Positions 2,843 to 61,480 of a DNA stretch of 64,000 nt are shown here, one piece after another. The position numbers were made by a program, and so were the translations under genes. The notes beneath the pieces are model-generated. The model ran no database searches. It was given only the letters and a program-made list of their open reading frames with translations, and was not told the origin of the DNA. Position 1 is the stretch's first letter. Every line of letters starts with the position of its first letter. Origin of the DNA: Nitrospirota bacterium (lineage in GTDB: Bacteria > Nitrospirota > Thermodesulfovibrionia > Thermodesulfovibrionales > UBA9159); NCBI GenBank assembly GCA_021790195.1, contig JAJYIF010000008.1:1-64000 (forward strand), in the 5' to 3' direction.

Positions 2843-2883
2843 GTTCTGATATGATAGTCTTATAAGTAAAGAAGGAGAGAGCT

Positions 2884-2928: not shown

Positions 2929-2929
2929 T

Positions 2930-10126: not shown

Positions 10127-11404
10127 ATGAGGGAGAAGGGCTTCTCTTTGATAGAACTCCTTATCGCAATGGGTGTGTTTGTGATCTCGCTTGTTCTTGT
10201 CTCGCAGTTTTTTGTGGACCAGCTTACCATGTTCAAGCAGCAGTCCAAGATAGCCGAGACCAATATCGAAGGTATTGTCGGCCTTGAAATCCTGAGGCGC
10301 GATATCGAACATGCGGGATTGGGCTTGCCGTGGAGTATAACTGTCTGGAACAGCCTTGGACAAGTTGCAGGAGTGGATTGGCCGAATCTCACAAGCTATA
10401 GCGAGGCGGTCTCGTCCGGGTCCTCGCCGGACCCAGCGAGTTTTAATGACGGCGATCCGGCCTCTGCTCTGCCTACGCCCGCTAATACAAAAAGAGCGCC
10501 GAGGGCTATTCTAAATGGTGATAATGTCGGAATCAACGGCTCGGACTATCTCGTTATAAAGTCGATTAATGTGGCCAACAGCCCGGCCTATAATACATCG
10601 AATAAATGGAATGATTTGAGCAGCGGGGGCGTGGTCACCGTAAAGAGCCCGGCCCTTGAAAATGTATATAGTAAAGAAGACGGTACCACCGATAACAATG
10701 TTAGAGTGATAGTGATCTCTCCAGGCGGCAAAGACCCAACCGGTCAAAAGCCGATCAGGGCACTGATCGTACAGGACTCACCAAGGGTTTTCTATGCGAA
10801 GTATAGCGACGTGACCAGTGCTTCTTCGATCTGGCCACCAGACAACACAGAGACCAGAATAATATACGGTGTTGATTCTGATACCGACCTGAGAATGCCC
10901 TTTAATAGGGCGGACTATTTTATTTCGCGTTCGAATGTCCCTACGTCTTGCGCTCAAAATACGGGGGTACTTGAAAAAGCCGTGGTCAATCAGGCCGATG
11001 GGAAATTTACTTATTTGCCGCTGCTTGACTGCGTCGCCGATGTGCAGGTGGTTTTCGGAATAGATTCGAGTGATCCGCCTGATAATAAAGCGGACTGCTA
11101 TGTGAACAATCTTTTGGATTCCGTGAGTCCTCTCGACGCTCCGACAATAAGGCAGAAGGTTCGGGAAGTCAGGATGTACGTGTTGGCCCAGGAAGGGCAG
11201 TATGACCGGTCTTTTAAGTATATTGCTCCGATAAGCCCGAGCAGCATCAGGGTTGGCGAAAGCGCGTCAGGCAGTCTGCCAGCTTGTGCAGGAGCGGCGC
11301 TATTCGGTCGCGATTTCAACTTTACAACTAACAACATTACGAATTGGCAGAATTACAGGTGGAAGGTTTACACTTTGGTTGTGGAATTGCATAATCTGAT
11401 GTGA
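10127..11404 (+). CDS. pilW: Minor pilin PilW-like precursor
   Basis: At 425 residues this is the largest minor pilin in the operon. The leader is only four residues (MREK) before G^FSLIELLIAMGVFVISLVL. The following IVGLEILRRDIEHAGLGLP segment is the hallmark of PilW. The long insert between the N-terminal helix and the C-terminal beta region is as expected for PilW. It lies two bases after pilV and its end meets pilX. With PilV and PilX it should link PilY1 to the pilus. Confidence 0.88.
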   Translation: MREKGFSLIELLIAMGVFVISLVLVSQFFVDQLTMFKQQSKIAETNIEGIVGLEILRRDIEHAGLGLPWSITVWNSLGQVAGVDWPNLTSYSEAVSSGSSPDPASFNDGDPASALPTPANTKRAPRAILNGDNVGINGSDYLVIKSINVANSPAYNTSNKWNDLSSGGVVTVKSPALENVYSKEDGTTDNNVRVIVISPGGKDPTGQKPIRALIVQDSPRVFYAKYSDVTSASSIWPPDNTETRIIYGVDSDTDLRMPFNRADYFISRSNVPTSCAQNTGVLEKAVVNQADGKFTYLPLLDCVADVQVVFGIDSSDPPDNKADCYVNNLLDSVSPLDAPTIRQKVREVRMYVLAQEGQYDRSFKYIAPISPSSIRVGESASGSLPACAGAALFGRDFNFTTNNITNWQNYRWKVYTLVVELHNLM

Positions 11405-31278: not shown

Positions 31279-32409
31279 ATGAGCCTTGTCGGACGATTAG
31301 AAGACCTTGCCCTCTCTGACATCTTCCAGATTCTGAGCATAGGCAAGAAGACCGGAACCCTCGTGATAGAGAGCGAAGAGGGAAACGCCTTCATAGTGTT
31401 CAAGAACGGGCTGATTGTGAGGGCCGAGACCGACATACTCGAAGGCAATATCGGGCAGGACCTGCTGAAGAAGAACATTGTGAAGGACAGGATATTCGCC
31501 ATCGGCCTCAATGTCAGGAAGGAGCTGCCGGGAAAGTCCATAGCCGAGATACTGTTCGAGCTCGGCTCGGTGAGCAAGGAGTCTCTTGACAAGACCGCCA
31601 AGAAGAGGATCGAGAAGATAGTTTATCATCTCCTTCTCATAAACCAGGGCGATTTTCGCTTTGAACTCGACAACCTCGATGTCAGGGGGCTGAGCAAGGT
31701 CGATGACACGGGATGGGAGGTCTCCAAGGGGATCAGCCCGGAGTACCTTCTCATGGAAGGCGCAAGGGTCCATGACGAGGAGATGCAGAAGGAGGACCTG
31801 GGTGAAGGCCTCACGGAAGAGGCCGCAGGCGAAACATGGGAAGAGGACTGGGGGGAGCATCCTCATGCGGTCGAGCGGAAGGACATCTCCGCCCTCAAGT
31901 CCCTTACGCAGGAGCTGAGGTTCCCCAATTCAACGTCCGAGATCACCCTCCTCGTCCTGAGGTTCGCAAGCGACATGTTTCAGAGGGGAGTATTGTTCAT
32001 GGTTGGAGAAAAAGAGCTTGCCGGGCTGGGGCAGTTCGGTCTGGACATCGAAAGGGCCGACGAAAAGATAAGGGAGACCGTTCTCATGTATGAAAAAAGC
32101 CCTTTTCTAAGGAAAGTCATAGAGAACGGGCAGCCGTTCAAGGGCGCGCTGGAGAGGGACGGTGTCACGGAGGCCATAATGCGGGAGCTCGGGGGAGGAT
32201 GGCCCGCGGAGATCGCCTTCTTCCCCGTAATCACGGAGGGCAAGGTCGTCGCGCTTCTCTATTGCGACAACGCCGGCAGTGGAGAGGGCTTTTCCGAGAC
32301 CGAGGGGTTGGAGATATTCATAAGCCAGGCGGGTCTGGCCCTCGAAAAATCGCTTCTCGTGAGGAAATTGCAGGAGTTCCAAAAAGAGCAGGGGAGACCC
32401 AGGCACTGA
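31279..32409 (+). CDS. DUF4388 (PATAN) domain protein with GAF-like C-terminus
   Basis: This 376-residue soluble protein begins with SLVGRLEDLALSDIFQILSI and KTGTLVIESEEGNAFIVFKNG, the pattern of the DUF4388/PATAN domain found in bacterial signalling proteins. Residues 195-365 resemble a GAF fold (FASDMFQRGVLFMVGEKEL, then IAFFPVITEGKVVALLYCD). No catalytic output is seen. PATAN proteins serve as adaptors in two-component and gliding or chemosensory pathways. It stands first in the run of chemosensory genes, 60 bases before cheY, and is likely an input or adaptor of that system. Confidence 0.78.
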   Translation: MSLVGRLEDLALSDIFQILSIGKKTGTLVIESEEGNAFIVFKNGLIVRAETDILEGNIGQDLLKKNIVKDRIFAIGLNVRKELPGKSIAEILFELGSVSKESLDKTAKKRIEKIVYHLLLINQGDFRFELDNLDVRGLSKVDDTGWEVSKGISPEYLLMEGARVHDEEMQKEDLGEGLTEEAAGETWEEDWGEHPHAVERKDISALKSLTQELRFPNSTSEITLLVLRFASDMFQRGVLFMVGEKELAGLGQFGLDIERADEKIRETVLMYEKSPFLRKVIENGQPFKGALERDGVTEAIMRELGGGWPAEIAFFPVITEGKVVALLYCDNAGSGEGFSETEGLEIFISQAGLALEKSLLVRKLQEFQKEQGRPRH

Positions 32410-32487: not shown

Positions 32488-32859
32488 GTGAAGTCGGTTC
32501 TCGTTGTTGAGGATTCCGCAACTACAAGGGCGATGATAAGGGCGGCGATCGAAGATATGGGAGAAGACTTCACCGCGCTGGAAGCCTCTACCGGCTTTGA
32601 AGCGCTCAAGATGCTGCCCCGCGAGGAACTCGATCTCATCATTACCGACATAAACATGCCCGACGTGAACGGGCTTGAGCTTATCAATTTCGTAAAATCC
32701 AACCCGAACTACCGGCACATACCAATGGTGATCGTCACCACCGAGAGGAGCAGCGAAGACAAGGAAAGAGGACTTTCCCTGGGAGCGAGCGCATACGTCA
32801 CAAAACCCTTCAGGTCCGAAGAGCTCCAGGCGGTGATCGCGAAGATACTCAATCAATGA
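32488..32859 (+). CDS. cheY: CheY-like single-domain response regulator
   Basis: This 123-residue receiver has SVLVVEDSATTRAMIRAAIE (acidic pocket Glu-Asp), the phosphorylation site ITDINMPDVNG, the Thr switch VIVTTERSS and the Lys of VTKPFRS. It has no output domain. It should be phosphorylated by CheA, encoded directly downstream with a four-base overlap. The GTG at 32488 follows GGGAGGCAAG, a better ribosome-binding site than for the GTG at 32470. The target of phospho-CheY could be a motor, a pilus or another protein. Confidence 0.92.
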   Translation: MKSVLVVEDSATTRAMIRAAIEDMGEDFTALEASTGFEALKMLPREELDLIITDINMPDVNGLELINFVKSNPNYRHIPMVIVTTERSSEDKERGLSLGASAYVTKPFRSEELQAVIAKILNQ

Positions 32860-34841
32860 AATCTTCTAAGAAGGATTTTATCGCAGAGACTGAGGAGCTC
32901 ATAGAGGAAGCGGAAAGGCTCCTGACCGAGGTCCAGGAGACATACTCCTCAGGCGTAAACCCGGATACGATAAACGCCCTCTTCCGTGCGGTCCATACCA
33001 TCAAAGGCATCTCGGGACTTTTCGGCTTCAAGGACATTGCGGATTTCAGCCACGCCTTTGAGTCTCTTCTGGACGACATAAGGCTCGGAAGGCTCGGGAT
33101 CACCGAGGATGTGGTCAGGTTCCTTTTCAGCAATACAGACGCCATCAAGAAGGTCTTTGAAGATATAGAAGCCGAGAGGCCGCACGACGTGTCGGGATAT
33201 CTGAAGAACATCGCGTCTTTCAGAGAGGCGGCGAAAGAGTCCGGGGGGGAGGGCAGGCCCGAGGACTTGCTTGCGCGGATCGATCCGTCCATCATCAAGG
33301 TCCTCTCCGAATACGAGGAGCATAGATTAAAGACGAATATAAAGGAAGGCAAAGGGATCTATCTCGCCAGGGCCGTCTTTTCCCTTACTGACTTCGACAA
33401 GCTTCTGAACGACCTTACCGGCAGGATCAAGGCCCAGGGGGAGCAGATATCGACCCTGCCCACCTCATCCGACCTGCCTCCCGAATCTATAGGGTTCAAC
33501 ATCCTGTTCGGCAGCGTCAGGCCCCGGGAAGATCTGGCGCAGGCGCTCGGCATCCCGGTGGATGAATTTGTACAATGCAAGTCAGCCCCGGCCCCTCCCC
33601 CTCCAGTCCCTGCGCCGAAGACGCAGGAGGCGTCGCTGAAGAGCGCGAGCACGTACGTCAGGGTCGATATAGAAAAACTCGACAGGATCCTCAATACCAT
33701 AAGCGAATTGAACCTTGCCAGGTCGGCCACGAACAGGATTGCGGCCGAGATGAAGGAAGAGTTCGGGCACACCCCGCTCGTCATAGACGTGTTCAAGATA
33801 TCGCAGTCCTTCGAAAGGAGGATCACCGAGCTCAAGGAGCAGGTGCTCGAAATCCGGATGATACCCATAGGCCAGATCTTCTCGAGGCTCGGCCAGGTCA
33901 TACGGCGCTACTCCCGCGAGGCGGGCAAACAGATAGAGCTTGTCCTCTACGGGGAGGACACCGAAATAGACAAATATCTGGCGGAGGAGATAATCGACCC
34001 TCTCATGCACATAGTCCGGAACGCGATAGATCACGGCATGGAGACCGCGGCTGAAAGAAAGGGCCTCGGCAAAAGGGAGAATGGGACGATCGTGCTCAAG
34101 GCGTTCCAGAGGGGAAACCATGTCATCATCGAGGTGAAGGACGACGGCCCGGGAGTGGACGTGGAAAAGGTGAGGAGGAAGGCGGTGGAGAAAGGCCTCA
34201 TGGCAGAGGGTGCGGAGATGACCGACCGCGAGATCCTGGACTTTATCTTTATGCCCGGCTTCAGCACGAAGGCGACGGTAAGCGAGATCTCCGGAAGGGG
34301 CGTGGGCATGGACGTGGTGAAGGAGAAGCTGTCGAGCCTCGGCGGCTTTGTGGATGTGGAGACCGAAAAAGGAAAAGGTACGACCTTCACGCTGACTGTC
34401 CCGATAACCCTCGCCATTCTCAAGGCCCTGATAGTGCGGGTCGGCAGGGAGAGATTTGCGATCCCGCTGACCTCCTCCTCGGAAAGTCTGGTGATCGAGC
34501 ACAAGGACATCCAGACGATAGAGGGAAGGGACGTATATAACCTGAGGGGGGAGATGCTCCCCATCGTGAGGATCGCCAATGTCTATGACATTGACGGCGA
34601 AGTCTCGGAGAGGTCCTTTGCGGTTGTTGTGGGCTTCGGGGAGAGAAGGATCGGACTTTTCGTCGACGAGATGATAGGGCAGCACGAGATCGTCATAAAA
34701 TCCCTGGGTGACTACTTCAAGGGATTGCGGGGATTTGCCGGCGCAGCCGAGATCGGAAAACATGAGGTGGTCCTGGTCATCGACGTGGAATCGGTAATAG
34801 AGGATTCCCTTTCAAAGCAAAGGGTGGCGCACCATGTATAA
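32856..34841 (+). CDS. cheA: Chemotaxis histidine kinase CheA
   Basis: The 661-residue product has an N-terminal HPt domain with phospho-accepting His47 (ALFRAVHTIKGISGLFGF), a variable middle domain (about 150-250) that replaces the classic P2, and a Pro-rich linker (APAPPPPVPAPKT). A P3 dimerisation helix pair (VRVDIEKLDRILNTISELN) follows, then the P4 ATPase (HIVRNAIDHGMETAAERKG; VKDDGPGVD; GRGVGMDVVKEKL) and the P5 CheW-like domain. All kinase boxes are intact. It phosphorylates the two CheY proteins and CheB of this operon in response to the MCPs. The unusual P2 region fits the alternative-function or pilus-linked chemosensory classes rather than flagellar CheA. Confidence 0.95.
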   Translation: MKSSKKDFIAETEELIEEAERLLTEVQETYSSGVNPDTINALFRAVHTIKGISGLFGFKDIADFSHAFESLLDDIRLGRLGITEDVVRFLFSNTDAIKKVFEDIEAERPHDVSGYLKNIASFREAAKESGGEGRPEDLLARIDPSIIKVLSEYEEHRLKTNIKEGKGIYLARAVFSLTDFDKLLNDLTGRIKAQGEQISTLPTSSDLPPESIGFNILFGSVRPREDLAQALGIPVDEFVQCKSAPAPPPPVPAPKTQEASLKSASTYVRVDIEKLDRILNTISELNLARSATNRIAAEMKEEFGHTPLVIDVFKISQSFERRITELKEQVLEIRMIPIGQIFSRLGQVIRRYSREAGKQIELVLYGEDTEIDKYLAEEIIDPLMHIVRNAIDHGMETAAERKGLGKRENGTIVLKAFQRGNHVIIEVKDDGPGVDVEKVRRKAVEKGLMAEGAEMTDREILDFIFMPGFSTKATVSEISGRGVGMDVVKEKLSSLGGFVDVETEKGKGTTFTLTVPITLAILKALIVRVGRERFAIPLTSSSESLVIEHKDIQTIEGRDVYNLRGEMLPIVRIANVYDIDGEVSERSFAVVVGFGERRIGLFVDEMIGQHEIVIKSLGDYFKGLRGFAGAAEIGKHEVVLVIDVESVIEDSLSKQRVAHHV

Positions 34842-35664
34842 GAGGTTCTATCGTTTCGATGCGAAGCCTTTCAGCAAGACCCCTGATCCCAGGTTTCTCT
34901 ATATGTCCAGGACCCATGAAGAGGCCCTTGCCCGGCTGCAATATGCCGTGGAGGAGAGGGAGATCGCCGTGCTGACAGGCGAGATAGGGTGCGGCAAGAC
35001 GACCCTTACGAGGGCGCTTATGGATTCCTTCGATGAGACCTACAGGGCCATTGTGGTGCTTAACCCGAGGCTCACCTCGATGGATTTCGTGAGGACCATA
35101 GGCGAAAGGCTCCAGTGCGGTTCTGCGTCGGACCGGAAGAGCGACCTTCTGAATGTGATCTATGCGAAGCTTTATGAGGATTATAAGGCCGGGATAACTC
35201 CCGTTCTTATAATCGATGAGGCCCATCTGATCCCTTACAGGGAGACTTTCGAGGAGATAAGGCTGCTCACGAATTTTCAGATGGACGACGACAACCTCCT
35301 TGCGCTTGTCCTTGTCGGCCAGCCTGATTTGATGAAGAAGCTTCAACTTCCCTCCCTTGCCGCCCTGAGGCAGAGGGTGGGGCTTTTTTGCCGGCTCGAA
35401 ACCCTGGGAGAAGATGAAATAAAGGCCTACGTCGAGCACAGAGTTGCCGTCGGAGGAAGGTCGGAGCCGGTCTTTACCGATGCTGCGATCCGCGCACTTT
35501 ACAAATACTCCGAAGGCATTCCAAGGGTCATAAACAGCCTCGCGGGCATGTCGCTCCTTGAAGGTTTTGCAAGAGATGCTGCGCTCATAGACGAGTCGGT
35601 TGTCCGTTCAGCCGCAAAGGAGATCGGTCTCAATGGATATCGCAAAGATAAGGAAGAAGTTTAG
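34834..35664 (+). CDS. ExeA/GspA-type AAA ATPase
   Basis: The 276-residue ATPase starts with FYRFDAKPFSKTPDPRFLYM, the N-terminal mark of the ExeA (GspA) family, and has Walker A GEIGCGKTTLTRAL, Walker B VLIIDEAHLI and a C-terminal helical part (GIPRVINSLAGMSLLEGF). ExeA proteins help assemble secretion or pilus secretins, or act as DNA-transposition ATPases. This copy ends without the peptidoglycan-binding domain and has no membrane helix. It overlaps cheA by eight bases and cheW by 32, so it is truly embedded in the chemosensory operon. Its role there is not known. Confidence 0.85.
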   Translation: MYKRFYRFDAKPFSKTPDPRFLYMSRTHEEALARLQYAVEEREIAVLTGEIGCGKTTLTRALMDSFDETYRAIVVLNPRLTSMDFVRTIGERLQCGSASDRKSDLLNVIYAKLYEDYKAGITPVLIIDEAHLIPYRETFEEIRLLTNFQMDDDNLLALVLVGQPDLMKKLQLPSLAALRQRVGLFCRLETLGEDEIKAYVEHRVAVGGRSEPVFTDAAIRALYKYSEGIPRVINSLAGMSLLEGFARDAALIDESVVRSAAKEIGLNGYRKDKEEV

Positions 35665-36256
35665 GGGGGTCCCTGGCCAGGAGGCTGAAAGGCCTGCTGC
35701 GGAACAGGAGGACGTACCCCGGGGCGCCGGGGAAACGGAGTTTCCTGAAAACCCTGTCCCTCCTCCTCCTCCTCCTCCTCCTGTTGTAGAGGAAGCGAAA
35801 GAAGCGGAGGCCGGTGAAGGGGATGAGGACGCTACGGTGCAGCTCCTCGCGTTCAAACTCGCAAAGGAAGAATACGCCTTCAGGATCGATGAGATAGAAG
35901 AGATCGTGAGGCCCCAGGGAATCACGATAATACCGAACACCGGGCCGCATCTGCTAGGCATCACCTCTCTTAGAGGGAAGATTATCCCAGTGATAGACCT
36001 GAAGACGATGCTGTCTCTCGGGTCGCCGGGGACGGCCGGAGACAACAAGGAGAAGATACTGATCCTGAAAGGACCGAAAGGTCCCATTGGGGCGATGGTG
36101 GACAGCGTCATCGGGGTGATAAGGCCGTCCGCCTCCAGGATCGTCGAAACGCCGCTTCATCTGCCGGACGCAGAGATGAAGTTCATCGAGGGAGTCGCGA
36201 TAGTGGACGGCAGGTTCGTCTCGGTCATACGGATGAGCGAGGCGGCGGCGATATAA
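35633..36256 (+). CDS. cheW: CheW-like adaptor with proline-rich N-terminus
   Basis: This 207-residue protein has a 70-residue disordered start containing a run of eight prolines, then one CheW domain (QLLAFKLAKEEYAFRIDEIE, HLLGITSLRGKIIPVIDLK, GPIGAMVDSVIGVIR). CheW joins receptors to CheA. The ATG at 35633 follows AAGGAG and lies inside the ExeA-type gene; 11 further codons are open upstream. The long Pro-rich tail is unlike ordinary CheW and may bind another component. Confidence 0.9.
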   Translation: MDIAKIRKKFRGVPGQEAERPAAEQEDVPRGAGETEFPENPVPPPPPPPPVVEEAKEAEAGEGDEDATVQLLAFKLAKEEYAFRIDEIEEIVRPQGITIIPNTGPHLLGITSLRGKIIPVIDLKTMLSLGSPGTAGDNKEKILILKGPKGPIGAMVDSVIGVIRPSASRIVETPLHLPDAEMKFIEGVAIVDGRFVSVIRMSEAAAI

Positions 36257-36307: not shown

Positions 36308-39160
36308 ATGAGAAAGAGACTTGAATTCAAGGTCCTCGCAATCGTTGCTGCGATGCTCTTGACCGTGGCGCTCCTCTCGGGGCTTATATCGGCCTACATA
36401 CAAAAAGACACGGTCCTTGACATTACGCAATCCGGCACCGAGACTACGGCCCGCATGGTCCTCGACAATATCGAGACGACCATGCTTGCCGGAAAGGCCG
36501 ATGTCACCCGCAAGAACGTGGAGGACATGAAGCAGATCCGGGGAATGGAGGCGATCACGGTCATAAACTCCGAAGGCAGGGAAGCGTTCAAGCCGGACGC
36601 CCCCATAACCGATGCGGGTCTCATAAGCGAATTTGAGAAGGGCAAGCTGAGCAAGCCCGAAAGAAAGAACGGACTGCTCATCTATTCCCTGCCGCTGAAG
36701 AATGCGACGCGTTGCCAGGAGTGCCATGGGGCCGATAAGCCGATACTGGGCGCCGTGAAGGTCTCGCTCTCACTGGAGAAGGAGTTCCAGAAGGCCAGGA
36801 CTCAGATTGTGTCCATGGTCGCCGCGACGGTCGTCGTGTCGCTGCTCATCAGCATTGTCCTCTGGCTCCTGCTCAGAAGGATGGTCATATCCCCCATTAA
36901 GGCGATCAACTCGGCCGCTGCCAAGATCTCTGGCGGGGACCTCTCCTTCGATGTGAAGGTGGCGGGCGACGACGAGATAGGGACGATGAGCGGTATTTTC
37001 AAGGAATCCTTCAGGTCTCTCGGCGTGATCCTCCAGAGGCTCAAGGACCTCTCGGGAAGAATCTCCAGGGTGACACAGGATGTCGAGAAGGAGTCGAGGA
37101 AGGTCGTGAACGGAGCGGAGGTGGAGGCGGAGGCCCTTTTGAATATATCCAATTCCGTTTCCGAGCTGAACTCTACTGCCTCTGAGATCTCCGAAAGCAC
37201 GGAGGGCCTGGCGGCCTCAGTGGAGGAGACATCGGCGTCTATGGACCAGATGGTCTCGAGCATCAACAACGTCAATGAGAACATCCACGACCTGTCGACT
37301 GCCGTCGAGTCCACTTCTTCTTCCATAGAGGAGCTTTCTGCTACGATCAAGGAGGTGGCCTCCAATGCCGAAGAGCTCGCAACTGCATCAGAGGAGACCC
37401 TTTCGGCCATTTCCGAGATCACCTCGGCGATCAAGGAAGTGGAGCTCAACGCGAAGGAGTCTTCAAGACTTTCGGAGAAGGTCACGAGCGATGCAGCCAC
37501 CTACGGCATGGTGTCGGTCGACAAGACCATAGAGGGCATGAAGAACATAAAGGCGTCGGTCGAGCGTACCGCGGACTTTATCACCAAACTCGGGGGGAGG
37601 TCTGACGAGATAGGGAAGATACTTAATGTCATAGACGAGATCACCGATCAGACGACCCTCCTGGCCCTGAACGCTGCGATATTGGCGGCGCAGGCCGGGG
37701 AACACGGGAAGGGGTTCTCGGTCGTGGCCGACGAGATCAAGGACCTTGCGGAGAGAACGGCCTTTTCTACTCAGGAGATAGCCTCCCTCATTCAGGCCGT
37801 TCAGCAGGAAGTAAGAAGCTCTGTGGAGGCGATGCACGAAGGCCTCCGCTCTGTCGAGGAAGGTTTCAAGCTCTCGCGCGAGGCCGGCGACTCCCTGAGA
37901 AAGATCCTCGACAGCTCCAAAAAATCTTCCGAGATGGCGCTTTCCATAGAGCGCTCCACTACCGAGCAGTCCAAGGCGGCGAAACTCGTCACAGAGGCGA
38001 TGGAGCGCGTCAGGAACATGACCGACCAGATCGCCAAGGCGACTTCTGAGGAATCTAAAGGCATCCTCCTTATAATAAAGGCCACTGAGAAGATGCGCGA
38101 CGCGGCCCACCAGGTCAGCAAGGCGACCGAGGAGCAGACGGTCAGCAGCCGCCATATATCAAAGGCGATGGAGTTCGTCTCGGAGCGGAGCCAGCAGATA
38201 TCGAAGGCCCTCGGCGAGCACAAGATAGGCACGCAGCACATATTGAACCTGACGGACGGGCTGAAGGGCATTCCGCTGGACAACAGGAAGCTCGCCTTCA
38301 GGATCACAAATACCCTCAGGGACCTTCATCAGGACTCGGAGCTGCTGAAGATGGAGATGGAGCGTTTTAAGTTTTCGGAGGAGAGGGGGGCGGTTCTCAA
38401 ACTCGGGGTCCTGCCCCTGGAGTCTCCTTCGACCATGTTCAAGAATTTTCTGCCCCTCGCGGATTTCCTGAGCAAGAAGCTGGGCAGGACGGTCGAGCTC
38501 AAGGTCGCCGTGGACTTCGAAGGCGCCCTGAAGGACATAGGACAGAACGTCACACAGTTGTGCGCGCTGGGGCCTGCCACTTACATAGAGGCCCAGCGGA
38601 GATACGGCGTCAAGGTGCTGGTAAAGGGGCTTCGCGACGGAAAGCCGTACCACCGCTCGGTCATTATAACGCGGTCGGACACCTCCATAAGGTCTGTTTC
38701 GGACATCAGCGGGAGGTCCTTTGCCTTCGGAGACGTGCATTCCTCTGCCGGCTATATCGTCCCTAGACTGATCCTGAAAGACGCGGGCATCGAACTGGAG
38801 GACCTGCTCAGCCACAGCAATCTGGGGCAGCACGACGCCGTTGCTCAGGCGGTGCTTCGCGGGGATTTCGATGCTGGCGCCGTTATAGAGTCCACCGCAA
38901 ACAGGTATAGGGACCGCGGTCTGCGCTTCGTCCATCTTTCGGAAGAGATCCCCGAGATGAACATCTGCTACAACACTTCTGTTGTCGACAAAGAAGTGTC
39001 GGCCATAAAGACCGTACTGATTTCGCTCAATGATTCTTCGGCTGAGGGGGCCGTGATCCTGAAATCCATCGACAAGGACTATACGGGCTTTGTCGAGGCC
39101 GACGACGGCGACTACAGCGGCATCAGGTTCAAGATGTCGAAGCTGGGAATGATAACGTAA
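36308..39160 (+). CDS. Methyl-accepting protein with periplasmic haem motif and C-terminal PhnD-like domain
   Basis: The 950-residue protein has a membrane helix (about 8-30), a periplasmic domain of about 135 residues that contains CQECH (136-140), a CxxCH haem c motif, a second helix (168-190) and HAMP (190-243). The long methyl-accepting coiled coil has its conserved tip around residues 430-470 ([20 protein letters not shown]). Residues 695-950 resemble the PhnD/phosphonate-binding periplasmic-protein fold ([59 protein letters not shown]). By topology this binding domain is in the cytoplasm. The signals could be redox state or a small ligand outside and a second ligand inside. CGGAGG precedes the ATG. 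Confidence 0.88.
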
Positions 39161-39173
39161 GGGCGGTGCCGAA

Positions 39174-41234
39174 ATGATAAAGTTCAAAAATTATTCCCTG
39201 GTCACGAATTTTACCGTCATCATATTGTTGATACTCGTGGTGGGGCAGGGAGTTCTTTATACCTGGCTCCTCCTTTACCAGAAGAGTTATCTCGAAAAGA
39301 GGCTGAGGGCGGAGGTCGCCGCCATGGCCCGGCACGTTGCGGAGATGGTTTCCGAAGACACGACCAACGCAAAGCCTTTGGACCAGTTTCTCGATGTTCT
39401 TATTAAGGAAGGGCTTGTCCTGTCCGTGACGGTCTATGACGCCTCCGGGAAAACGCTTGTTTCGAAGGCCCAGACCGAGAACATGAGCGAACCGGACAGG
39501 GGCGGGCTGAACCCATACTCCATCTTTTACATCCCCTCCGTGAACACGGTCGAGGTCCCGCTGAAGGACGGCGAGGGGAAGGTCGAAGCGGTCTACAGCG
39601 GCCGGTCCGTGAACGAGCTCATGAAACGTTTTCTTTTTGTCCCGCCTTTCATGCAGGGTGTCACTTTTCTGGTTGTCGTCTATGCCATAGTCAGGTTCTT
39701 CAGGAAGAAAGTGTCCGACCCGGTGAGGAGTATCAACGACGCCCTCGGAAGGATCACCGCAGGAGACCTGACCGTGGAGATGCCCGAGACCGCCGACAAG
39801 GAAATAGGGAGCATCGTCAAGGGCCTGCAGTTCCTTGTCGAGAGCCTCTCTTCGACCATTGCGCGGTCCAATTCGCTCTCTGGCAACGTGGCGGCCGCAA
39901 TGGCCCAGCTTACCGTCACCCTTAACGCGGTCGGGGAGAGGGCCAGGAAGCAGTCCAAGTCTATCGACGATGTTGTTTCGATGATCCGGGAGGTAAGCGA
40001 ATCCCAGAAGAGGACGACGGACAATACGGACAAGCTCTCCCGCGTCTCTTCGGAGAACGTGGCCTCCCTGCAGGAGATGAAATCCGTGGCCCAGGAGATC
40101 GCGGTAAGCACCGGGAGGCTGTTCAAATCGAGCGGCGATTCCTACGCCATGATAGCCGAGCTTTCACAGACGGCAAAGGCGATTGCCGAAAGCTCCGGAG
40201 AAGTCTCCCGCGCCGTGGAAAACACCGCTACTTCCGTAGAGCAGATAAGCGTCTCTCTGAACGAGGTCAGGGACAATACGAAGAGGTCTTCGGATCTGAG
40301 CGCGACTGTGAGGCAGCTCCTTACCGACCGGGGCACGCTCGCCGTGGCGGACGCGATAGAGGCCATGGAAAAGATAGTGGATGAGGTGAACTATTCCGCC
40401 AAGATCATAACCCGTCTCGAACAGCGCTCCAAGGACATCGAGAAGATCCTTTCGGTAATAAAGGAGGTGACCGAGAAGACCAACCTGCTCAGTCTGAACG
40501 CGGCCATACTTGCGGCCCAGGCGGGGGAATACGGCAAGGGCTTTTCGGTGGTGGCCGACGAGATACGGTCTCTCTCCGACAGGACCTCGTCGTCGGCAAG
40601 GGACATAGCGAGTATCGTTAAGTCCATACAGACGGAGATCCACGACGCAGTCGGCGCGATAAACCAGGGCGTCATAAAAGTCGAAGAGGGCAAGGACCTT
40701 ATCTTCAAGTCGGGGGAGGCGATGGGCGAGACCCTCGAGGCCGCTCAGAAGTCGGTACAGATGGCCCGGCTGGTGGAGAAGGCGACCGCTGAACAGGCCG
40801 AGGGGCTGCGCCAGATACGCATGTCCATGGAGAACGTGAAGGTGATGATAGAGCAGGTGGTGAATGCCACCGAGGAGGAGAAGCGGGGTTCCAGCCATAT
40901 GCTCGAGAGCATAAGCGACGTGAAGGAGGTGGCGGAGCTTACCAAGAAAGCGACCGAAGAGCATGCAGTGGGGACGAATGTAATTTCCAGGAACCTCGAG
41001 CTGACCCTTGAGATGGCGTCACAGATAAACCAGGCCGCTATGAGCCAGCTCAAGGTCAATGAGGACGTGGTTTCAGCAGTGGAGCAGATGAAGAATGCCG
41101 GCGTCTCGGCGGTGCGGGACATGGAAGAGGTCACGCTTTCTTTCGGCACCCTCAGGAGCGAGGTCGAAAGCCTGAAGAAGGAGATGGAGGCATTCAAAAC
41201 GTCGGAAGCACGCAGCTCCAGGGGTTCGAGGTAG
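39174..41234 (+). CDS. Methyl-accepting chemotaxis protein
   Basis: The 686-residue receptor has a first membrane helix ([20 protein letters not shown]), a periplasmic domain of about 125 residues with a small PAS/Cache-like pattern ([17 protein letters not shown]), and a second helix ([16 protein letters not shown]). A HAMP domain and a full signalling coiled coil follow, with the tip [20 protein letters not shown]. It ends in a Ser/Arg-rich tail without the CheR-binding pentapeptide. The gene is 13 bases after the haem-type receptor and resembles it in the cytoplasmic part, so the two probably act in one array. No haem motif is present here. Confidence 0.93.
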
Positions 41235-41241
41235 ACTTCCT

Positions 41242-41727
41242 ATGCCGAGGGTCGCGGTTGCGCGCGCAGGAGATGAGCATTTCGGTATCGACATCAACCG
41301 TGTTGTCGAGATACTGAAGGCGCAGCGTATATACCTTTTGCCCCAGTTGCCGTCCTTTCTTGCCGGCGTGGTCAACATCAGGGGAGATGTCATACCGCTT
41401 CTTGACCTGAGAAAGCGCTTTGGAATAAGCTCGTCGTCCGAGAAGGAGCGCATTGTAGTAGTGAGGTGGGGCAAAGAAAAGGTGGGGCTGCTTGTGGACG
41501 GCGTTAAGGAGATTGTCAACCTCCAGCCCGAGGAGATCACAGGGCCTCCTTCAATGTTCAGGGGGCTGAAGACGGAGTACCTTACCGGGATCGGCAAGAA
41601 AGGGGAGAACATAATAATCTTGCTGAATATCGACACCCTCCTCAGCTCGGAGGAGAAGATACAGATGGAAGGCATAACTAAGAATACGGGAGCCGAAAAT
41701 GGAAGAGACAAGAAGGCCGCCGGCTGA
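41242..41727 (+). CDS. cheW: CheW-like adaptor, second copy
   Basis: This 161-residue single CheW domain has RVAVARAGDEHFGIDINRVV, PSFLAGVVNIRGDVIPLLDL and VGLLVDGVKEIVNLQPEEI. Unlike the first CheW in this operon it has no Pro-rich extension. Having two CheW proteins and two receptors suggests pairing of each adaptor with a receptor, or a mixed array. It overlaps the HEAT-repeat gene by 29 bases. Confidence 0.93.
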   Translation: MPRVAVARAGDEHFGIDINRVVEILKAQRIYLLPQLPSFLAGVVNIRGDVIPLLDLRKRFGISSSSEKERIVVVRWGKEKVGLLVDGVKEIVNLQPEEITGPPSMFRGLKTEYLTGIGKKGENIIILLNIDTLLSSEEKIQMEGITKNTGAENGRDKKAAG

Positions 41728-43672
41728 AGGGGACACCGAGATACGCAGAAAGGCGGTACTCGAACTCAGGGGCAGGCAATCTACTGTCGCAGTTCGGATG
41801 CTCCTTAAGGCGATGGAGGACCCAAGCTGGAGGGTGAGGAAGGCCGCCTCAGAAATCCTCACGAATGAATACCCGGTCGAACACTACGCGGACGGGCTTA
41901 TCAAGCTTCTGGCAATCGAAGAAAATGCCGGGGCAAGGAATTCAGCTATAGAGACGCTGGTCAGACTGGGGAAGAAGGTCACGACACATCTCGTGGACGC
42001 CTACGATTCTTCCGGCAGGGACGTGAGGAAGTTTATCGTGGACATCATAGGCGAGGTGAAGGACAAGAAGGCCCTTCCCCTTCTGCTGAAGGCGTTGAAG
42101 GACGAGGACGACAACGTCAAGGCGTCGGCGGTCGAGCACCTCGGTCAGATGGGAGACCGTTCGGTCGTCGATGCCCTGATAGAGATCCTGAACAGCGGTG
42201 ATATCTGGACGGCCTTTCCCGCTGCCGATGCCCTCGGAAGGATAGGGGACAGGAAAGCCATTCCGGCCCTTCTCGGAGCACTGAAGGTCAAGGCACTGAG
42301 GGAGCCGGTGCTCAGGGGTCTCAGCCATTTGTCGGCGCCCGAGACCTTGGAGCATATCGTGCCGCTCCTAGCAGATGCATCTAGGAGCATACAGGAAGAG
42401 ACGATGATAACGGTGGGGACCTTCTACCATAAAGGGGTCCCGGCAGACTTTATCTCCGGGACGATACACAGGCTTTGCGGCCCCGAAGTAATCCACAAGA
42501 TAGCGAAACATGCGTGGTCCGCCAAGACTGATGTGAGAACGGCCGCAATACTGCTTTTGGGACTTATGCAGGACGAAAGGGCGCTCGGTCCGCTCCTCGA
42601 TCTTTACTCAGAAGAAAGCGTTGCCGAGGACGTTAAAAAGGCCCTTGCATTCATAGGAAAGGGCAGACCGGAGTCTCTCATCGGGCTCCTTCGTTCGGAC
42701 AATGAGTATCAGAGGCGGTTGATCGCAGAGGTGGCGGTGGAAGTCGCGTCCCCTCTTTACCGCCAGCTTTTTGAGGACCTCCTTTCCGACAGGGACGGAC
42801 ATGTGAGGGCCTTTGCGGCGATAGGCCTTTCGAGGCTGCGGGACAAAGGCGCCGTGCAATCTCTGAAGAGGCTGCTTTCCGATCCATACGAGGATATACA
42901 AGAGGCCGCTGTCGCGGCCCTTAGCGACCTCAGGGAGGGTCTTGATGTGGAAGAGTTCGTGGCCTGTCTGAGGGCAGAAGACGCAGCTCTGAGGAAGAAT
43001 GCAGCCTTTCTCCTCGGAAGGATAGGGGCGAGGGACAGCATTGCCGCACTCGGTTTTGCGCTCAAGGACGCTGACGTTACGGTCAGGCAGGCAGTCGTGG
43101 AAGCGCTCTCTTCCCTCAAGACCGAAGAGGCGGCGAAGTACCTCGTCTTTGCGCTCACTGACGAAAACCCGCACATAAGGGCCTCTGCGGCCCTGAGCCT
43201 CGGCTCCATGGAAGGCAGGAGGCCCGATCCCCTGATCCTTTTGCTTTCAGACCCGGACGATTCGGTAAAGGTTGCGGCGGTCAGGGCGATAGGCATGACA
43301 GGAGACAGAAGCGCGGTCGGACATCTTGTAAATATGCTTGTGAACCAGAACGGCTTCGTCGTGACGACTGCAATAGAATCCCTCGCCAGGCTCGGAGGGG
43401 AGGAGGCGGGAAATGCGATCGCAAACATGCTTGGCACGAACGACCCCGAGATAAGGCGAACCGCCATACGCTCTCTATCCTGCTTCAGCGGTTTTGAAGA
43501 GAGAGTTCTTTCATTTCTCCATGATCCGGACTGGGCCACGAGGATCGCAGCGCTCGAGACACTGAGCAGGTGCGCCGCCGGGAGGCTTGATGAAAAGATC
43601 GGGGAGCTGTACGACCGGGAGGAGGACCCAGCGGTGAGAAGGATCATGGAGGAGCTTTTTGGCGTTCGGTAG
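41699..43672 (+). CDS. HEAT-repeat protein of the chemosensory operon
   Basis: The 657-residue protein is made almost wholly of HEAT/PBS-lyase-type repeats of about 30 residues (for example ALPLLLKALKDEDDNVKASA, ALIEILNSGDIWTAFPAADA, ALGFALKDADVTVRQAVVEA). It has no signal peptide, membrane helix or catalytic motif. Such alpha-solenoids serve as docking platforms. It lies between cheW and cheR, overlapping both (29 and 14 bases), so it is an integral part of the operon. A role as scaffold for the array or as target of CheY is plausible; this is inference. Confidence 0.88.
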   Translation: MEETRRPPAEGDTEIRRKAVLELRGRQSTVAVRMLLKAMEDPSWRVRKAASEILTNEYPVEHYADGLIKLLAIEENAGARNSAIETLVRLGKKVTTHLVDAYDSSGRDVRKFIVDIIGEVKDKKALPLLLKALKDEDDNVKASAVEHLGQMGDRSVVDALIEILNSGDIWTAFPAADALGRIGDRKAIPALLGALKVKALREPVLRGLSHLSAPETLEHIVPLLADASRSIQEETMITVGTFYHKGVPADFISGTIHRLCGPEVIHKIAKHAWSAKTDVRTAAILLLGLMQDERALGPLLDLYSEESVAEDVKKALAFIGKGRPESLIGLLRSDNEYQRRLIAEVAVEVASPLYRQLFEDLLSDRDGHVRAFAAIGLSRLRDKGAVQSLKRLLSDPYEDIQEAAVAALSDLREGLDVEEFVACLRAEDAALRKNAAFLLGRIGARDSIAALGFALKDADVTVRQAVVEALSSLKTEEAAKYLVFALTDENPHIRASAALSLGSMEGRRPDPLILLLSDPDDSVKVAAVRAIGMTGDRSAVGHLVNMLVNQNGFVVTTAIESLARLGGEEAGNAIANMLGTNDPEIRRTAIRSLSCFSGFEERVLSFLHDPDWATRIAALETLSRCAAGRLDEKIGELYDREEDPAVRRIMEELFGVR

Positions 43673-44531
43673 AGAAGAGACAATACCCCTTGTGGAAGAC
43701 GAATTCAGACTCATCAGGGACCTGATAAAGGGCGAAATCGGGCTGTTTTTTGACGACGGTTCAAGGTTCCTCCTCGAGCGCAGGCTTTCGAGAAGACTAA
43801 AGCTTCATCACATCAACGATTTCAGGGACTATTACCGTTTTCTCCTTTACGACAGGAAGAGAGACGAGGAGATGACTGCGCTCGTAGACCTCCTTACCGT
43901 GAACGAGACCTTTTTTTTCCGGGAACAGAGACAGCTCAAGGCCTTCAGCGAAGAGATACTTCCCGAGATAAGGGAGACCAACAGAGAGAGGAAGAGATTG
44001 CGGGTATGGTCGGCGGGCTGTTCCACCGGAGAGGAGCCCTATACAGTGGCGATGCTCGTGCTGGAATACGGCCTCTCCGGCTGGGACGTAGATATCCTGG
44101 GCAGCGACATCAACCAGAGGGTCCTCACGGCGGCGAGACAGGGCCTTTACAGGAAGAATTCCTTCCGGGTCACCGAGAAGCATTACATGGACAAGTATTT
44201 TAAGGAGGACGAGGGGACCTTTCTTATATCCGAGGATGTCAAGCGTCTCGTCAGCTTCAGCCATCTCAACCTCCTGGACCCCTTCAAGGTCAGGTTCGTA
44301 GGGAAGATGGATGTGATATTCTGCAGAAATGTTCTGATATATTTTGACCAGACTGCAAGGAAGAAGGTGGTGGACAACTTTTACGACAGTCTTGTGGATG
44401 GCGGGTATCTGCTGCTGGGGCATGCCGAGTCTCTTATAAACATATCCACATCTTTCGCGCTGAAGCATCTGAAGAACGACATGGTGTACCAGAAACCGAC
44501 AAGTCAGAAGGTTGCGGCAAATGCACGGTAA
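43659..44531 (+). CDS. cheR: Chemotaxis protein methyltransferase CheR
   Basis: The 290-residue enzyme methylates receptor glutamates using S-adenosylmethionine. Seen: the N-terminal helical domain (EFRLIRDLIKGEIGLFFDDG), the SAM site VWSAGCSTGEEPYTVAML, DILGSDINQRVLTAAR and CRNVLIYFDQ near the C-terminus, with LLLGHAESL. The start is TTG at 43659, preceded by GGAGGAG five bases upstream and lying inside the HEAT-repeat gene. It has no TPR extension. Confidence 0.94.
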   Translation: MAFGREETIPLVEDEFRLIRDLIKGEIGLFFDDGSRFLLERRLSRRLKLHHINDFRDYYRFLLYDRKRDEEMTALVDLLTVNETFFFREQRQLKAFSEEILPEIRETNRERKRLRVWSAGCSTGEEPYTVAMLVLEYGLSGWDVDILGSDINQRVLTAARQGLYRKNSFRVTEKHYMDKYFKEDEGTFLISEDVKRLVSFSHLNLLDPFKVRFVGKMDVIFCRNVLIYFDQTARKKVVDNFYDSLVDGGYLLLGHAESLINISTSFALKHLKNDMVYQKPTSQKVAANAR

Positions 44532-45615
44532 GATAAAGGTCCTCATAGTGGACGATTCATCGTACAGCCGGCAGACCATTAAGGAGATGATCGAGACGGA
44601 TGCCGAGATAGAGGTGCTGGGGGTGGCGTCGAACGGTGTGGAGGCGATGGCTAAGACGGTCAAGCTCAGACCGGACGTCATAACGCTCGATTTCGAGATG
44701 CCCGAGATGGACGGGTTCAGCTTTCTCAGGTGGATCATGAAAGACAGACCGATGCCGGTGATAATGGTTACGTCTTTTTCTGATTCTACGACTGTTTTTA
44801 AGGCTCTCGAATTCGGCGCTGTCGACTTCGTAGCAAAACCTTCCAAGAGGGCCTCGATGGAGCTCCACAACATTCAGGATGATCTTATTCAAAAGATTAA
44901 GAGCACGCGGCATCTTAAAATGGACAGGGTCGGTATATCGAGCGATCCTGTCGAACAGGCCCCGGAGGACGACGAGAGGGTGGCATATGCTCTTGATCAG
45001 GACGGTCCCTCGCAAAACATCAGGGTTGTAACCATCGGAGCATCTACCGGAGGTCCCACCGCTCTGCAGGTCGTTCTGACAAGGCTTCCGGCTAAGTTCC
45101 CCGCGGCGATCCTTATCAGCCAGCACATGCCGAGGGGTTTTACAAGACCTTTCACCGACAGGCTTGCCAAACTGTCCAGGATCGGGATAAAAGAGGCTGC
45201 CGACGGCGACCTTGTGGAGCCGGGGAACGCCCTTGTCTGTCCGGGCGGCTATCATATGACCCTAAAGAGCAAAAACGGCCTCGTCCGGGTTGCGCTGAGA
45301 GAGCCGGCGCAGAAGGACAGGTACATCCCTTCGGTGGACCTTATGATGTCCCATACGGCGGAACAGTTCGGTCCTTCGGCCATGGGGGTCGTCCTCACCG
45401 GCATGGGCAACGACGGCAAGAACGGCATAGTGGAAATAAAGAGGAAAGGTGGGTATACTATAGCAGAAGCAGAATCGACTGCGGTGATTTTCGGCATGCC
45501 CAATGAAGCGATAAAGACCGGCGCCGTCGACAGGGTGTTGCCCCTGTACAAGATAGCTGGGGAGATTACGATGACTCTTATGGGAAAAAGGGACAAAAAA
45601 TGGAAAAAGAATTGA
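44521..45615 (+). CDS. cheB: Chemotaxis methylesterase CheB
   Basis: The 364-residue protein has an N-terminal receiver (KVLIVDDSSYSRQTIKEMIE, phosphorylation site TLDFEMPEMDG, KPSKRAS) and a C-terminal methylesterase with the catalytic Ser in IGASTGGPTALQ, His in ISQHMPRGFTRPF and Asp in LTGMGNDGKNG. It removes methyl groups added by CheR and resets the receptors. The ATG at 44521 overlaps the cheR stop by 11 bases. All catalytic residues are present. Confidence 0.95.
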   Translation: MHGKIKVLIVDDSSYSRQTIKEMIETDAEIEVLGVASNGVEAMAKTVKLRPDVITLDFEMPEMDGFSFLRWIMKDRPMPVIMVTSFSDSTTVFKALEFGAVDFVAKPSKRASMELHNIQDDLIQKIKSTRHLKMDRVGISSDPVEQAPEDDERVAYALDQDGPSQNIRVVTIGASTGGPTALQVVLTRLPAKFPAAILISQHMPRGFTRPFTDRLAKLSRIGIKEAADGDLVEPGNALVCPGGYHMTLKSKNGLVRVALREPAQKDRYIPSVDLMMSHTAEQFGPSAMGVVLTGMGNDGKNGIVEIKRKGGYTIAEAESTAVIFGMPNEAIKTGAVDRVLPLYKIAGEITMTLMGKRDKKWKKN

Positions 45616-46418
45616 CAACCAAGAAAGTTGACGAATTTCTGGAGATCTTCAAGAAGGGAGAAGAGTTCACTAAGGACCTTCTCAAGGAGAATGAAAAGCT
45701 CCGTTACAGGATCGCGGAGATGGAAGACTCGCTTCAGGGCTCGGCCGGCGAAGAAAAGGTGCGGGTTTTCGAGGAGCGCATCAAGAAGCTTGAAGACGAG
45801 GTCGTGGCCGTGAAGGAGAGGTACAAGCGCGTCGAAGAGGAGAACAAGGATTTCGCGGCAAAGTATATCGAGGTCGAAGAGATAAACAACGCCTTGGCCA
45901 ACCTCTATGTCGCAAGTTATCAGCTCCATTCGACGCTCGATTTCGACGAGGTGCTCAGGATCATAAAAGAGATCGTGATCAATCTGATAGGCGCCGAGAT
46001 ATTCGCCGTGCTTCTCATCGATGAAAAGACGAACGATATCGTCCCTGTTTCGACCGAAGGTGTTACGCTTGAGGCGATCCCGAAGGCCAGGATCGGCGAA
46101 GGGATCGTCGGCTCGGTTGCAAAAGAGGGGGAGAGTTATTTCGCAGCTGACCTGCGCGAAGGAGGAGACGTAGAGAAGGGGATGCCCATGGTCTGCATCG
46201 CGCTCAAGATAAAGGAGCACGTGATAGGCGTTATCGCGATCTATTCGTTGCTTATGCAGAAAGAGGGGTTCAACAACGTGGACTACGAACTTTTCAACCT
46301 CCTGGCGGGACATGCGGCGACCGCCATATTCTCGGCGAAACTCTATACACAGTCCGAAAGGAAACTGACTACCATACAGAGCTTTCTTGAACTCTTGAAA
46401 GAGAAGCCGAAAAAATAG
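45600..46418 (+). CDS. Coiled-coil GAF domain protein
   Basis: This 272-residue soluble protein has a long N-terminal coiled coil (about 1-100, highly charged, with EKVRVFEERIKKLEDEVVAV) and a C-terminal GAF domain (about 110-260: LHSTLDFDEVLRIIKEIVIN, RIGEGIVGSVAKEGESYFA, HVIGVIAIYSLLMQKE). No kinase or cyclase output follows. GAF domains bind small ligands or cyclic nucleotides, and coiled coils bind partners, so this may be a soluble sensor or CheY-binding adaptor. It overlaps cheB by 16 bases and is followed after eight bases by the last cheY. Confidence 0.8.
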   Translation: MEKELTTKKVDEFLEIFKKGEEFTKDLLKENEKLRYRIAEMEDSLQGSAGEEKVRVFEERIKKLEDEVVAVKERYKRVEEENKDFAAKYIEVEEINNALANLYVASYQLHSTLDFDEVLRIIKEIVINLIGAEIFAVLLIDEKTNDIVPVSTEGVTLEAIPKARIGEGIVGSVAKEGESYFAADLREGGDVEKGMPMVCIALKIKEHVIGVIAIYSLLMQKEGFNNVDYELFNLLAGHAATAIFSAKLYTQSERKLTTIQSFLELLKEKPKK

Positions 46419-49511: not shown

Positions 49512-51083
49512 CTAACTGTCAGCTCTTCTCTGTCTCCTCAGATAATAAACCGCGCCGAGTCCGGCAAGGAGCATAAATATAATCATACCCCATTCGTTCA
49601 TAGCCGGGACCGAGGCTGGGGCGGGTGGATCTTGATATTCATAAGCACCGATGTCACATTGCGAGTGCTGTGGCCGCGTCACACCGCGCTGATCGACGCC
49701 GTTTACCGGAGCTGCGGCGCAGACCGCATTATTGCCCGCGTCGATTGCCGCGCTTCCTAAAGGAAGGGCGATAGTCTCGGTCGGCCCTCCGTTATTTGCC
49801 AGAACATTGCTCCCAAGCGGGTCGCTCCCAGGAGTCGGAATCGTGGCGCCACAGGAGTTTGCGATCGTACCGCCGAATTGTAGGTTGTTGCCGCCATTCG
49901 TAATCGTCCCCGATCCGCCGCAGTTACCCCCTGTAGGACTGTCAGCCACAATCGTATTCGTAAGAGTAAGGGTTGTCCCAGAAGCACCATAAATTGCCCC
50001 CCCTGCTTTAGATGCGCCGTTCCCTGCAAAGGTACAGTTGGTGACCGATGCCGAGTTGCCTAAAAAAAATATTGCTCCGCCGTTATATGTAGTGCTGTTT
50101 CCGGAAAAAGTGCTGTTTGCGAGAATCAATACGTTATATTCACCAATGGCGCCAGCTTCGCTATTGGTGGCCTGGTTTCCGGAAAAAGTACTGTTCGTAA
50201 TTGTAAGAGTCCCATAGTCGTGGTCGATTGCGCCCCCAGACGGTGCAGTGTTATTCAAAAAGGAAGTTTTGTCGATAGTTACATCTCCTGCATCCAAATC
50301 GAGTGCACCGCCAAAGTATGAATGCGCAGCACTGTTGCCGGAAAAAATGCTTCCCGAGATATTGAGAGTGCCCCCATTAAGCTTGATGGCGCCGCCCTGA
50401 TAGGCACTATTGCCTAAAAAAGAGCTGTTTGTGATAGTGACCTCGACCGCCGAAGTGTCCGAAAAAATCGCGCCGCCCCTCTCCGCGGGGGCGTTATTAT
50501 TCGAAAAAGTACACCCTGTAATGTCCAGGGTGCCCTGATTGTAGATCGCGCCGCCTGGGCCCGGGACTGATGCCGAAGAGCCCTTAGTCAAGGTAAGGTT
50601 GTTGAGCGTGAGCGTGGTAGAAGCGTTAATGTGAAACAACTGCCATTTGTTGTCTCCGTCCATGGTAACATTTTGGCCTGTGCCGTCAATCGTCTGGTCC
50701 CTGGTGATGTTGGGCAGGGCAGCGCCCAGAGTGATAGTGCCGCTGACTGAAAAATTGATAGTGTACGGCCCCCCGCTATCTGCGCCGCAATCGGCATTGG
50801 CGGGAGTCCCGTCCGCCGCAAGTATCGCTTCGCGCAAAGTGCAATTGCCATCGGTAGTCGTATTGTCCAATAGCGAATTGACGGTAAACGTTGTCGCCGC
50901 CTGTGCGACCGGCACATGGACAAAGGATATCATAAAGAAAAGTAGTGCTAATATGAAAATGAATAGAACGCCTCCCCGTTTCGTAGTTCCCCTGCCAAAC
51001 AATTCATAGATAAGGCCGTCGGGCGGTCTACTTACAAGGGTTTCTAATGAGAACAACGCAGGATTGCCGCGATTCTCGATCAT
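49512..51083 (-). CDS. Exported beta-helix protein with CSLREA motif and IPTL-CTERM anchor
   Basis: The 523-residue product has a late signal peptide (LFIFILALLFFMISFVHVPVA), then the CSLREA-type motif TVNSLLDNTTTDGNCTLREA. A long run of parallel beta-helix repeats follows (GGAIYNQGTLDITGCTFSNN and TLTITNSTFSGNQA patterns), rich in Asn, Thr, Gly and Ser. The end matches the choice-of-anchor/IPTL-CTERM pattern: VPAMNEWGMIIFMLLAGLGA followed by Arg residues (RRQRR). Such C-terminal signals are processed by exosortase-like systems, none of which is in this window. The ATG at 51083 follows AAAGGAGGG; 31 upstream codons are open. It is likely a surface protein of unknown ligand. Confidence 0.85.
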   Translation of the reverse strand: MIENRGNPALFSLETLVSRPPDGLIYELFGRGTTKRGGVLFIFILALLFFMISFVHVPVAQAATTFTVNSLLDNTTTDGNCTLREAILAADGTPANADCGADSGGPYTINFSVSGTITLGAALPNITRDQTIDGTGQNVTMDGDNKWQLFHINASTTLTLNNLTLTKGSSASVPGPGGAIYNQGTLDITGCTFSNNNAPAERGGAIFSDTSAVEVTITNSSFLGNSAYQGGAIKLNGGTLNISGSIFSGNSAAHSYFGGALDLDAGDVTIDKTSFLNNTAPSGGAIDHDYGTLTITNSTFSGNQATNSEAGAIGEYNVLILANSTFSGNSTTYNGGAIFFLGNSASVTNCTFAGNGASKAGGAIYGASGTTLTLTNTIVADSPTGGNCGGSGTITNGGNNLQFGGTIANSCGATIPTPGSDPLGSNVLANNGGPTETIALPLGSAAIDAGNNAVCAAAPVNGVDQRGVTRPQHSQCDIGAYEYQDPPAPASVPAMNEWGMIIFMLLAGLGAVYYLRRQRRADS

Positions 51084-51367
51084 ACTAACCCTCCTTTTAT
51101 AGATGCATTCCCCCAATATACCTTTTGCCGCTTTATAAGCTCGCACAATTAAAACATATCGTCCGGGGTTTGTCAATTTACCTGGATGTTTTCTTTATCT
51201 GCTGTAAACGCCGGGGTAAGAGGATTGTTATGGAAAGGCAAGAGTGAGGGGCATGGCGGCAACTGGAAAGGGGGAGGGCGGACGTATTCAAGCGACTTTC
51301 AAGATGATGACAATACACTTCCATGAACAGGTAATATTGCGCTAAAAGGTATACTATTAAAGAGGGT
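51084..51367. other. Intergenic stretch between divergent exported-protein genes
   Basis: These 284 bases separate the beta-helix gene (minus) and the lipoprotein gene (plus). Apart from the beta-helix ribosome-binding site (51086-51093 region) no gene, hairpin or repeat was recognised. Confidence 0.4.
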
Positions 51368-57224: not shown

Positions 57225-57602
57225 GTGCCAAGGATACTATTAGTGGAAGACAATGAGATGAACCGAGACATGCTCTCCCGGCGTCTTCAGCGCAAGGGGT
57301 ACGAAGTGATAATGGCGCTTGACGGCCAGGAAGGCATAAACATGGCATGTTCGGAGTCGCCTGACCTTATCCTTATGGACCTGAGCCTCCCCGTAATCGA
57401 CGGATGGGAGGCCACCCGCCGTCTCAAGGCCGCGCCCGAGACCTGCTCCATACCTGTCATAGCATTGACCGCACATGCCGTTTCAGGAGACAGGGAAAAG
57501 GCCCTCGATGCAGGCTGTGACGATTACGACATCAAGCCGGTGGAGATCACAAGGCTCCTGAGCAAGATCGAAGTCCTGCTGAACGGCAAGCCGTCGGCAT
57601 GA
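57225..57602 (+). CDS. Single-domain receiver (DivK-like)
   Basis: This 125-residue receiver has RILLVEDNEMNRDMLSRRLQ, the phosphorylation site LILMDLSLPVIDGWEATRRL, the switch VIALTAHAVSGD and DIKPVEITRLL. The NEMNRDMLSRRL helix is nearly repeated in the receiver of the cyclase encoded downstream (YEMNRDLLSRQL), so the two receivers are close relatives. GTG start after AAGGAGGGG. Its stop overlaps the cyclase start (ATGA). It is probably a phosphate shuttle or sink between the hybrid kinase and the cyclase. Confidence 0.92.
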   Translation: MPRILLVEDNEMNRDMLSRRLQRKGYEVIMALDGQEGINMACSESPDLILMDLSLPVIDGWEATRRLKAAPETCSIPVIALTAHAVSGDREKALDAGCDDYDIKPVEITRLLSKIEVLLNGKPSA

Positions 57603-61246: not shown

Positions 61247-61480
61247 AAGAGAGTATGGGAATATCCCAATAGAGAGTTTAACCGAAGCTGTGCATATGCC
61301 CCGCGGCTTGCCGCGTGGGAACCGTGCGTCTTCGGGGTCCAGGGCGTCGGAGCCGGAGGCGGAGACCCTTGGCCAAACACGGGGTCTAGTGCCCCGTGTG
61401 CGGAGCGGGTCCGGGAGCGCATCGAGCGACCGGGCCCTTACTTCGGAATATCCCCATCTTTTGTCCCGTTACTCTCTTAT
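61247..61480. repeat. GC-rich inverted-repeat block between convergent genes
   Basis: Imperfect outer arms (AGAGAGTATGGGAATATCCC at 61248-61267 and its broken inverse at about 61445-61480) enclose a GC-rich core. The core has two clean hairpins: CGCGG-cttg-CCGCG (61302-61315) and ACACGGGG-tctagtg-CCCCGTGT (61377-61399). The second is a good candidate for a bidirectional terminator. The right arm overlaps the end of the minus-strand gene. Confidence 0.5.

Follow-up and report, generated by a model that had tools for sequence, protein, structure and literature searches.

What does a binding domain of a normally periplasmic family do at the cytoplasmic end of a chemoreceptor, and how might it work together with a haem sensor on the other face of the membrane? 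The question arises from an open reading frame at 36308..39160 (+ strand) in a 64,000-nucleotide stretch of a Nitrospirota genome (the window; contig JAJYIF010000008.1), with a ribosome-binding-like GGAGG immediately 5' of it. The frame encodes a methyl-accepting chemotaxis protein (MCP) of 950 aa, here called MCP-PhnD, in which Pfam places Mcp40H-20_sensor (residues 50-157), HAMP (188-234), MCPsignal (392-571) and Phosphonate-bd (699-936) in that order. The original prediction, made from the letters of the sequence, was of an MCP joining a periplasmic CQECH motif to a PhnD-like domain after the coiled coil, and reading frame, motif and domain order all bear it out. Proteins with the PhnD-type domain, PF12974, are normally periplasmic.

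Hydropathy gives two membrane helices, at residues 9-27 (36332..36388; coordinates are on the + strand unless otherwise given) and 171-189 (36818..36874), the first preceded by MRKRLEFK with an inside-positive charge count. There is no third helix in the protein, whose next-best segment scores 1.0 on the Kyte-Doolittle scale, and exactly two are found in 32 of 33 near-full-length orthologues, the remaining one (L037) starting at the edge of its stretch and showing the second helix only. The HAMP domain (residues 188-234; 36869..37009; PF00672, 40 bits) is followed by an antiparallel coiled-coil hairpin (37028..38377; PF00015, 158 bits, with arm count and model in agreement), whose arms are of equal length, about 225 residues each, around a tip near residue 465; candidate methylation motifs, by pattern only, lie between residues 302 and 367. 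The features of the MCP class are present, namely the MCPsignal hairpin with its conserved 16-residue tip, HAMP, and adjacent CheA, CheW, CheR and CheB. The usual MCP hairpin tip is NAAIEAARAGE, and in E. coli receptors the residues altered here contact other dimers; the tips of MCP-PhnD (37670-37717) and of a second MCP (39174-41234) share an 11-residue reading that departs from this usual one. A conserved helical linker (residues 641-694; 38228..38389, by alignment), matched also in a short MCP-PhnD lineage, leads from the hairpin to the PhnD/PtxB-type binding-fold domain (residues 699-936; 38402..39115; assigned from PF12974, the PtxB match and the fold).

Because HAMP and hairpin must reach CheA, and the domain comes directly after them with no further helix, its location in the cytoplasm is supported, so that the two-helix, inside-facing arrangement originally proposed holds. 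The equal hairpin arms imply that the C-terminal domain should emerge beside HAMP, a placement suggested solely by the lengths of the arms; confidence in the full-length model is middling (pTM 0.42). Export of the domain, which would put both sensors outside, would agree with the normal location of PF12974 proteins, but we regard it as extremely improbable given the two helices in all orthologues except the incomplete one, the absence of a third hydrophobic stretch, and a position directly behind a hairpin and HAMP that must be cytoplasmic for CheA contact.

On the outer side, the periplasmic domain (residues 50-157; 36455..36778) is assigned as a haem-c sensor by PF21563 (Mcp40H-20_sensor; 37.9 bits against a cut-off of 27) and by alignment with the crystal structures 3B47 (GSU0582; E 3e-8) and 3B42 (GSU0935; E 1e-5), with CxxCH in register. 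The CQECH attachment motif (residues 136-140; 36713..36727) lies between the two helices, and a chance occurrence is ruled out, as all 33 near-full-length orthologues have CxxCH. In GSU0935 the distal haem ligand is Met60, which departs upon oxidation (PMC8396549); its equivalent here is Met59 (36482..36484, by alignment), and Met occupies this position in 34/34 haem-bearing members. The host genome encodes C-type cytochrome assembly genes, and covalent attachment of haem to MCP-PhnD is predicted. A 2026 preprint classes the domain as a haem-bearing single Cache (sCache_heme), common in Nitrospirota, and reports that members joined to signalling modules behave much like NO sensors (PMC12889525). 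By analogy with its family, the periplasmic domain of MCP-PhnD would thus sense redox or NO. GSU0582 and GSU0935 of Geobacter sulfurreducens likewise combine the periplasmic domain, CxxCH and distal Met with HAMP and an MCP hairpin, whereas the C-terminal binding domain found in the window protein is not reported for them (PMC8396549, PMC12889525).

On the inner side, PF12974 is matched over its whole profile (1-242 of 242; 202 bits), and the nearest protein by sequence is PtxB (E 4e-24), followed by ArrX and PhnD. AlphaFold2 modelling of residues 641-950 (40 sequences) returned the anticipated two-lobed fold with a mean pLDDT of 89. In Foldseek, PtxB in its closed form with ligand bound took the top rank for this model (TM 0.87-0.89, normalised by target length, at an rmsd of 2.1-2.5), open apo PtxB being a poorer fit (0.64-0.67). 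The fold, the full domain length and the positions of the oxyanion Ser/Thr and His are common to PtxB, PhnD, ArrX and the window domain; the former, however, are free periplasmic proteins, and the latter is the cytoplasmic C-terminal end of an MCP. An ABC-transporter solute-binding protein is ruled out, the domain being internal to an MCP in an operon without ABC genes.

The oxyanion motif of PtxB consists of Ser-Thr-Ser plus His (PMC5700983). In the sequence alignment of PtxB with MCP-PhnD, from which all residue equivalences between the two are taken, the loop corresponds to Ser812-Ser813-Ala814 (38741..38749) and PtxB His155 to His842 (38831..38833), so that the window copy reads S-S-A in place of the family consensus S-T-S and keeps the His. 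Ser812 is present in 41 of 42 family rows (the other has a gap) and His842 in 38, and conservation at eight positions equivalent to the PtxB pocket exceeds that of randomly drawn domain positions, modestly so (0.81 vs 0.66, p about 0.02). The cap, which sets specificity, is unlike that of phosphite and 2-aminoethylphosphonate binders: Tyr203 of PtxB is replaced by Met884 in the window copy and by Phe in 36/42 rows, and its partner Asp16 by Leu704. A PtxB-like phosphite specificity is rejected because of this exchange of the capping Tyr and Asp for hydrophobic residues. Pocket conservation, together with the retained Ser812 and His842, supports a predicted pocket for some anion across the family, although binding by the window copy itself could be weak or altered, since Ala814 and Met884 depart from the family. 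The original prediction of a dual sensor fares well on architecture, topology and evolution; the phosphonate or phosphate ester that it named as the inner ligand is a guess, as the window copy has lost part of the motif and the cap is a different one.

The fusion occurs in 51 of 101 related genomes, in the same open frame. Across the phylum Nitrospirota, 91 of 396 genomes have it, counted as matches covering the whole linker-plus-domain profile (five of the 91 have the short form, one of them alongside the long form). It was not seen in the phylum to which a Geobacter MAG belongs (345 genomes), where the matches listed all begin after the linker. The named carriers among the matches listed are Nitrospirota, mostly metagenome-assembled genomes, and rare cases elsewhere are possible. 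An assembly chimera or frameshift fusion is ruled out by the intact frame in the 51 genomes and the conserved linker. In the same operon slot, some receptors lack a periplasmic domain altogether (L068, L042, L053 and L199) and others have a different one in its place (Cache_3-Cache_2 in L064, sCache_3_2 in L196; CxxCH is missing from L193, L195, L196 and one of two L194 copies); the PhnD domain is kept in every one of these. The same domain forms the C-terminal end of another MCP lineage, 639-655 aa long (L187-L191), which lies outside the conserved operon, has a different hairpin tip and spans the membrane with no more than a short hairpin. The commonest-residue fraction is 0.64 for the PhnD domain vs 0.43 for the periplasmic domain. 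As the PhnD domain is kept where the outer sensor is lost or swapped, it is, judged by sequence comparison, the constant sensor of the family, the haem domain being commoner but exchangeable. This greater constancy, the conservation across much of the phylum and the role of MCP-PhnD as a fixed receptor of its operon had escaped the original prediction.

In a tree of the domain, the fused copies fall into one group with an SH-aLRT of 93, below the 95 mark, which also takes in nine unfused rows on long branches; a single origin of the fusion is likely from this topology. The closest unfused Gammaproteobacterial relatives are single binding proteins whose genes adjoin that of a GGDEF cyclase at the three loci checked, and the role of the donor branch may by then have been in signalling and not in uptake. 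At L136, L139 and L150 (near 2800-3800), single PhnD-like binding proteins are encoded directly 3' of a GGDEF diguanylate cyclase, which suggests that the two form a signalling pair. Proteins with two tandem PhnD-like domains (L202:670-2424, L203:988-2781, L204:2345-4045 and L206:760-2433) are frequent within the order of the host, one half being close to the chemoreceptor domain, and a related genome holds the odd architecture of a DsbD/CcdA-type membrane domain joined in one protein to two tandem PhnD-like domains (L052:5341-7602, - strand).

The receptor sits in an operon that encodes, in order and by Pfam and gene order, a DUF4388 protein as conserved upstream neighbour (31279..32409), CheA kinase (32856..34841), an AAA ATPase (34834..35664; PF13401), CheW (35636..36256), MCP-PhnD, the second MCP, without a PhnD domain (39174..41234), a second CheW (41242..41727), a HEAT-repeat protein (41699..43672), CheR methyltransferase (43659..44531), CheB methylesterase with a receiver domain (44512..45615) and a GAF-domain protein (45600..46418). 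This order is conserved across families, with small losses, and the conserved operon holds neither a separate CheY nor transporter genes. FlhA was not found in the host genome, which has three PilT above the cut-off; among the 101 related genomes, FlhA is present in 17/51 with the fusion vs 39/50 without it (p 8e-6, kinship ignored), and PilT in 99. With a host that lacks FlhA and has PilT, the output most likely runs through type IV pili or is non-flagellar in some other way, PilT being too general to serve as proof. A further MCP gene pair lies on the same contig outside the window (G000:C21:89698-93232). Elsewhere in the window, one protein (57599-59590, +) combines a HisKA-like segment with a receiver and a nucleotide cyclase domain, and is encoded next to a hybrid kinase and the large subunit of a nickel-dependent hydrogenase; a 554 aa frame (49512-51176, -) has Chlamydia-PMP-type repeats; and two frames of 801 and 425 aa (61469-63874, -, and 10127-11404, +) have no Pfam match at 1e-8.

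We interpret MCP-PhnD as a dual-input transmembrane chemoreceptor, with haem-c outside and the PhnD-like domain inside, both feeding the CheA of its own operon, and we consider this reading probable. The constancy of the PhnD domain in the operon's receptor, and the partial loss of the oxyanion motif in the window copy, would also be expected if the domain no longer bound a ligand and had become a structural or protein-docking module, one that might, for instance, receive CheR/CheB or the HEAT protein or help to pack the arrays. Against such a loss of binding stand the invariant Ser812 and nearly invariant His842, pocket positions conserved above the domain average, and the same domain on a different MCP lineage outside the operon, so that we hold it to be rather unlikely. 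Less likely still is that the domain docks a signal-bearing partner, such as an enzyme or a transporter subunit, and that ligand binding is merely stabilising: the closest unfused Gammaproteobacterial relatives do stand beside a GGDEF cyclase, and their branch may already have signalled with partners, but the conserved operon has no transporter gene.

In the dual-input reading, the single-Cache haem-c domain would report redox state or a diatomic gas from outside, probably through a Met59 on/off ligand switch as described for GSU0935. Inside, we infer that the captured two-lobed domain, which follows the returning arm of the hairpin and by length should lie beside HAMP, would bind a small anionic cytoplasmic ligand and then close. 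HAMP and the methylation bundle would be the place where the two conformational inputs converge and set CheA activity. A wider version of this proposal, which we hold with less confidence and put at somewhat below an even chance, is of a phylum-wide, mostly non-flagellar system in which an intracellular metabolite, read by the captured domain of periplasmic-binding type, is the defining input and periplasmic haem a replaceable second one.

In the open-licence literature we found no chemoreceptor described as having a PhnD-type domain at its cytoplasmic end; both halves of MCP-PhnD are already known, and their combination is apparently undescribed. In DcrH-type MCPs the cytoplasmic sensor at the C-terminus is a hemerythrin, in TlpD-type MCPs a CZB domain. 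They share with MCP-PhnD the principle of a cytoplasmic sensor after the signalling hairpin, and are set apart from it, by description, through another fold and ligand class. The effector domains of LysR-type regulators are an instance of a two-lobed binding fold inside the cell; this much they have in common with MCP-PhnD, whereas family and output, there DNA binding, differ.

If the wider proposal is correct, the receptor would weigh the redox conditions outside against the metabolic state inside. Its relatives with and without the outer sensor form a natural set for testing how outside and inside signals are integrated in one receptor, and the family offers a test case for the evolutionary transfer of binding domains across the membrane.
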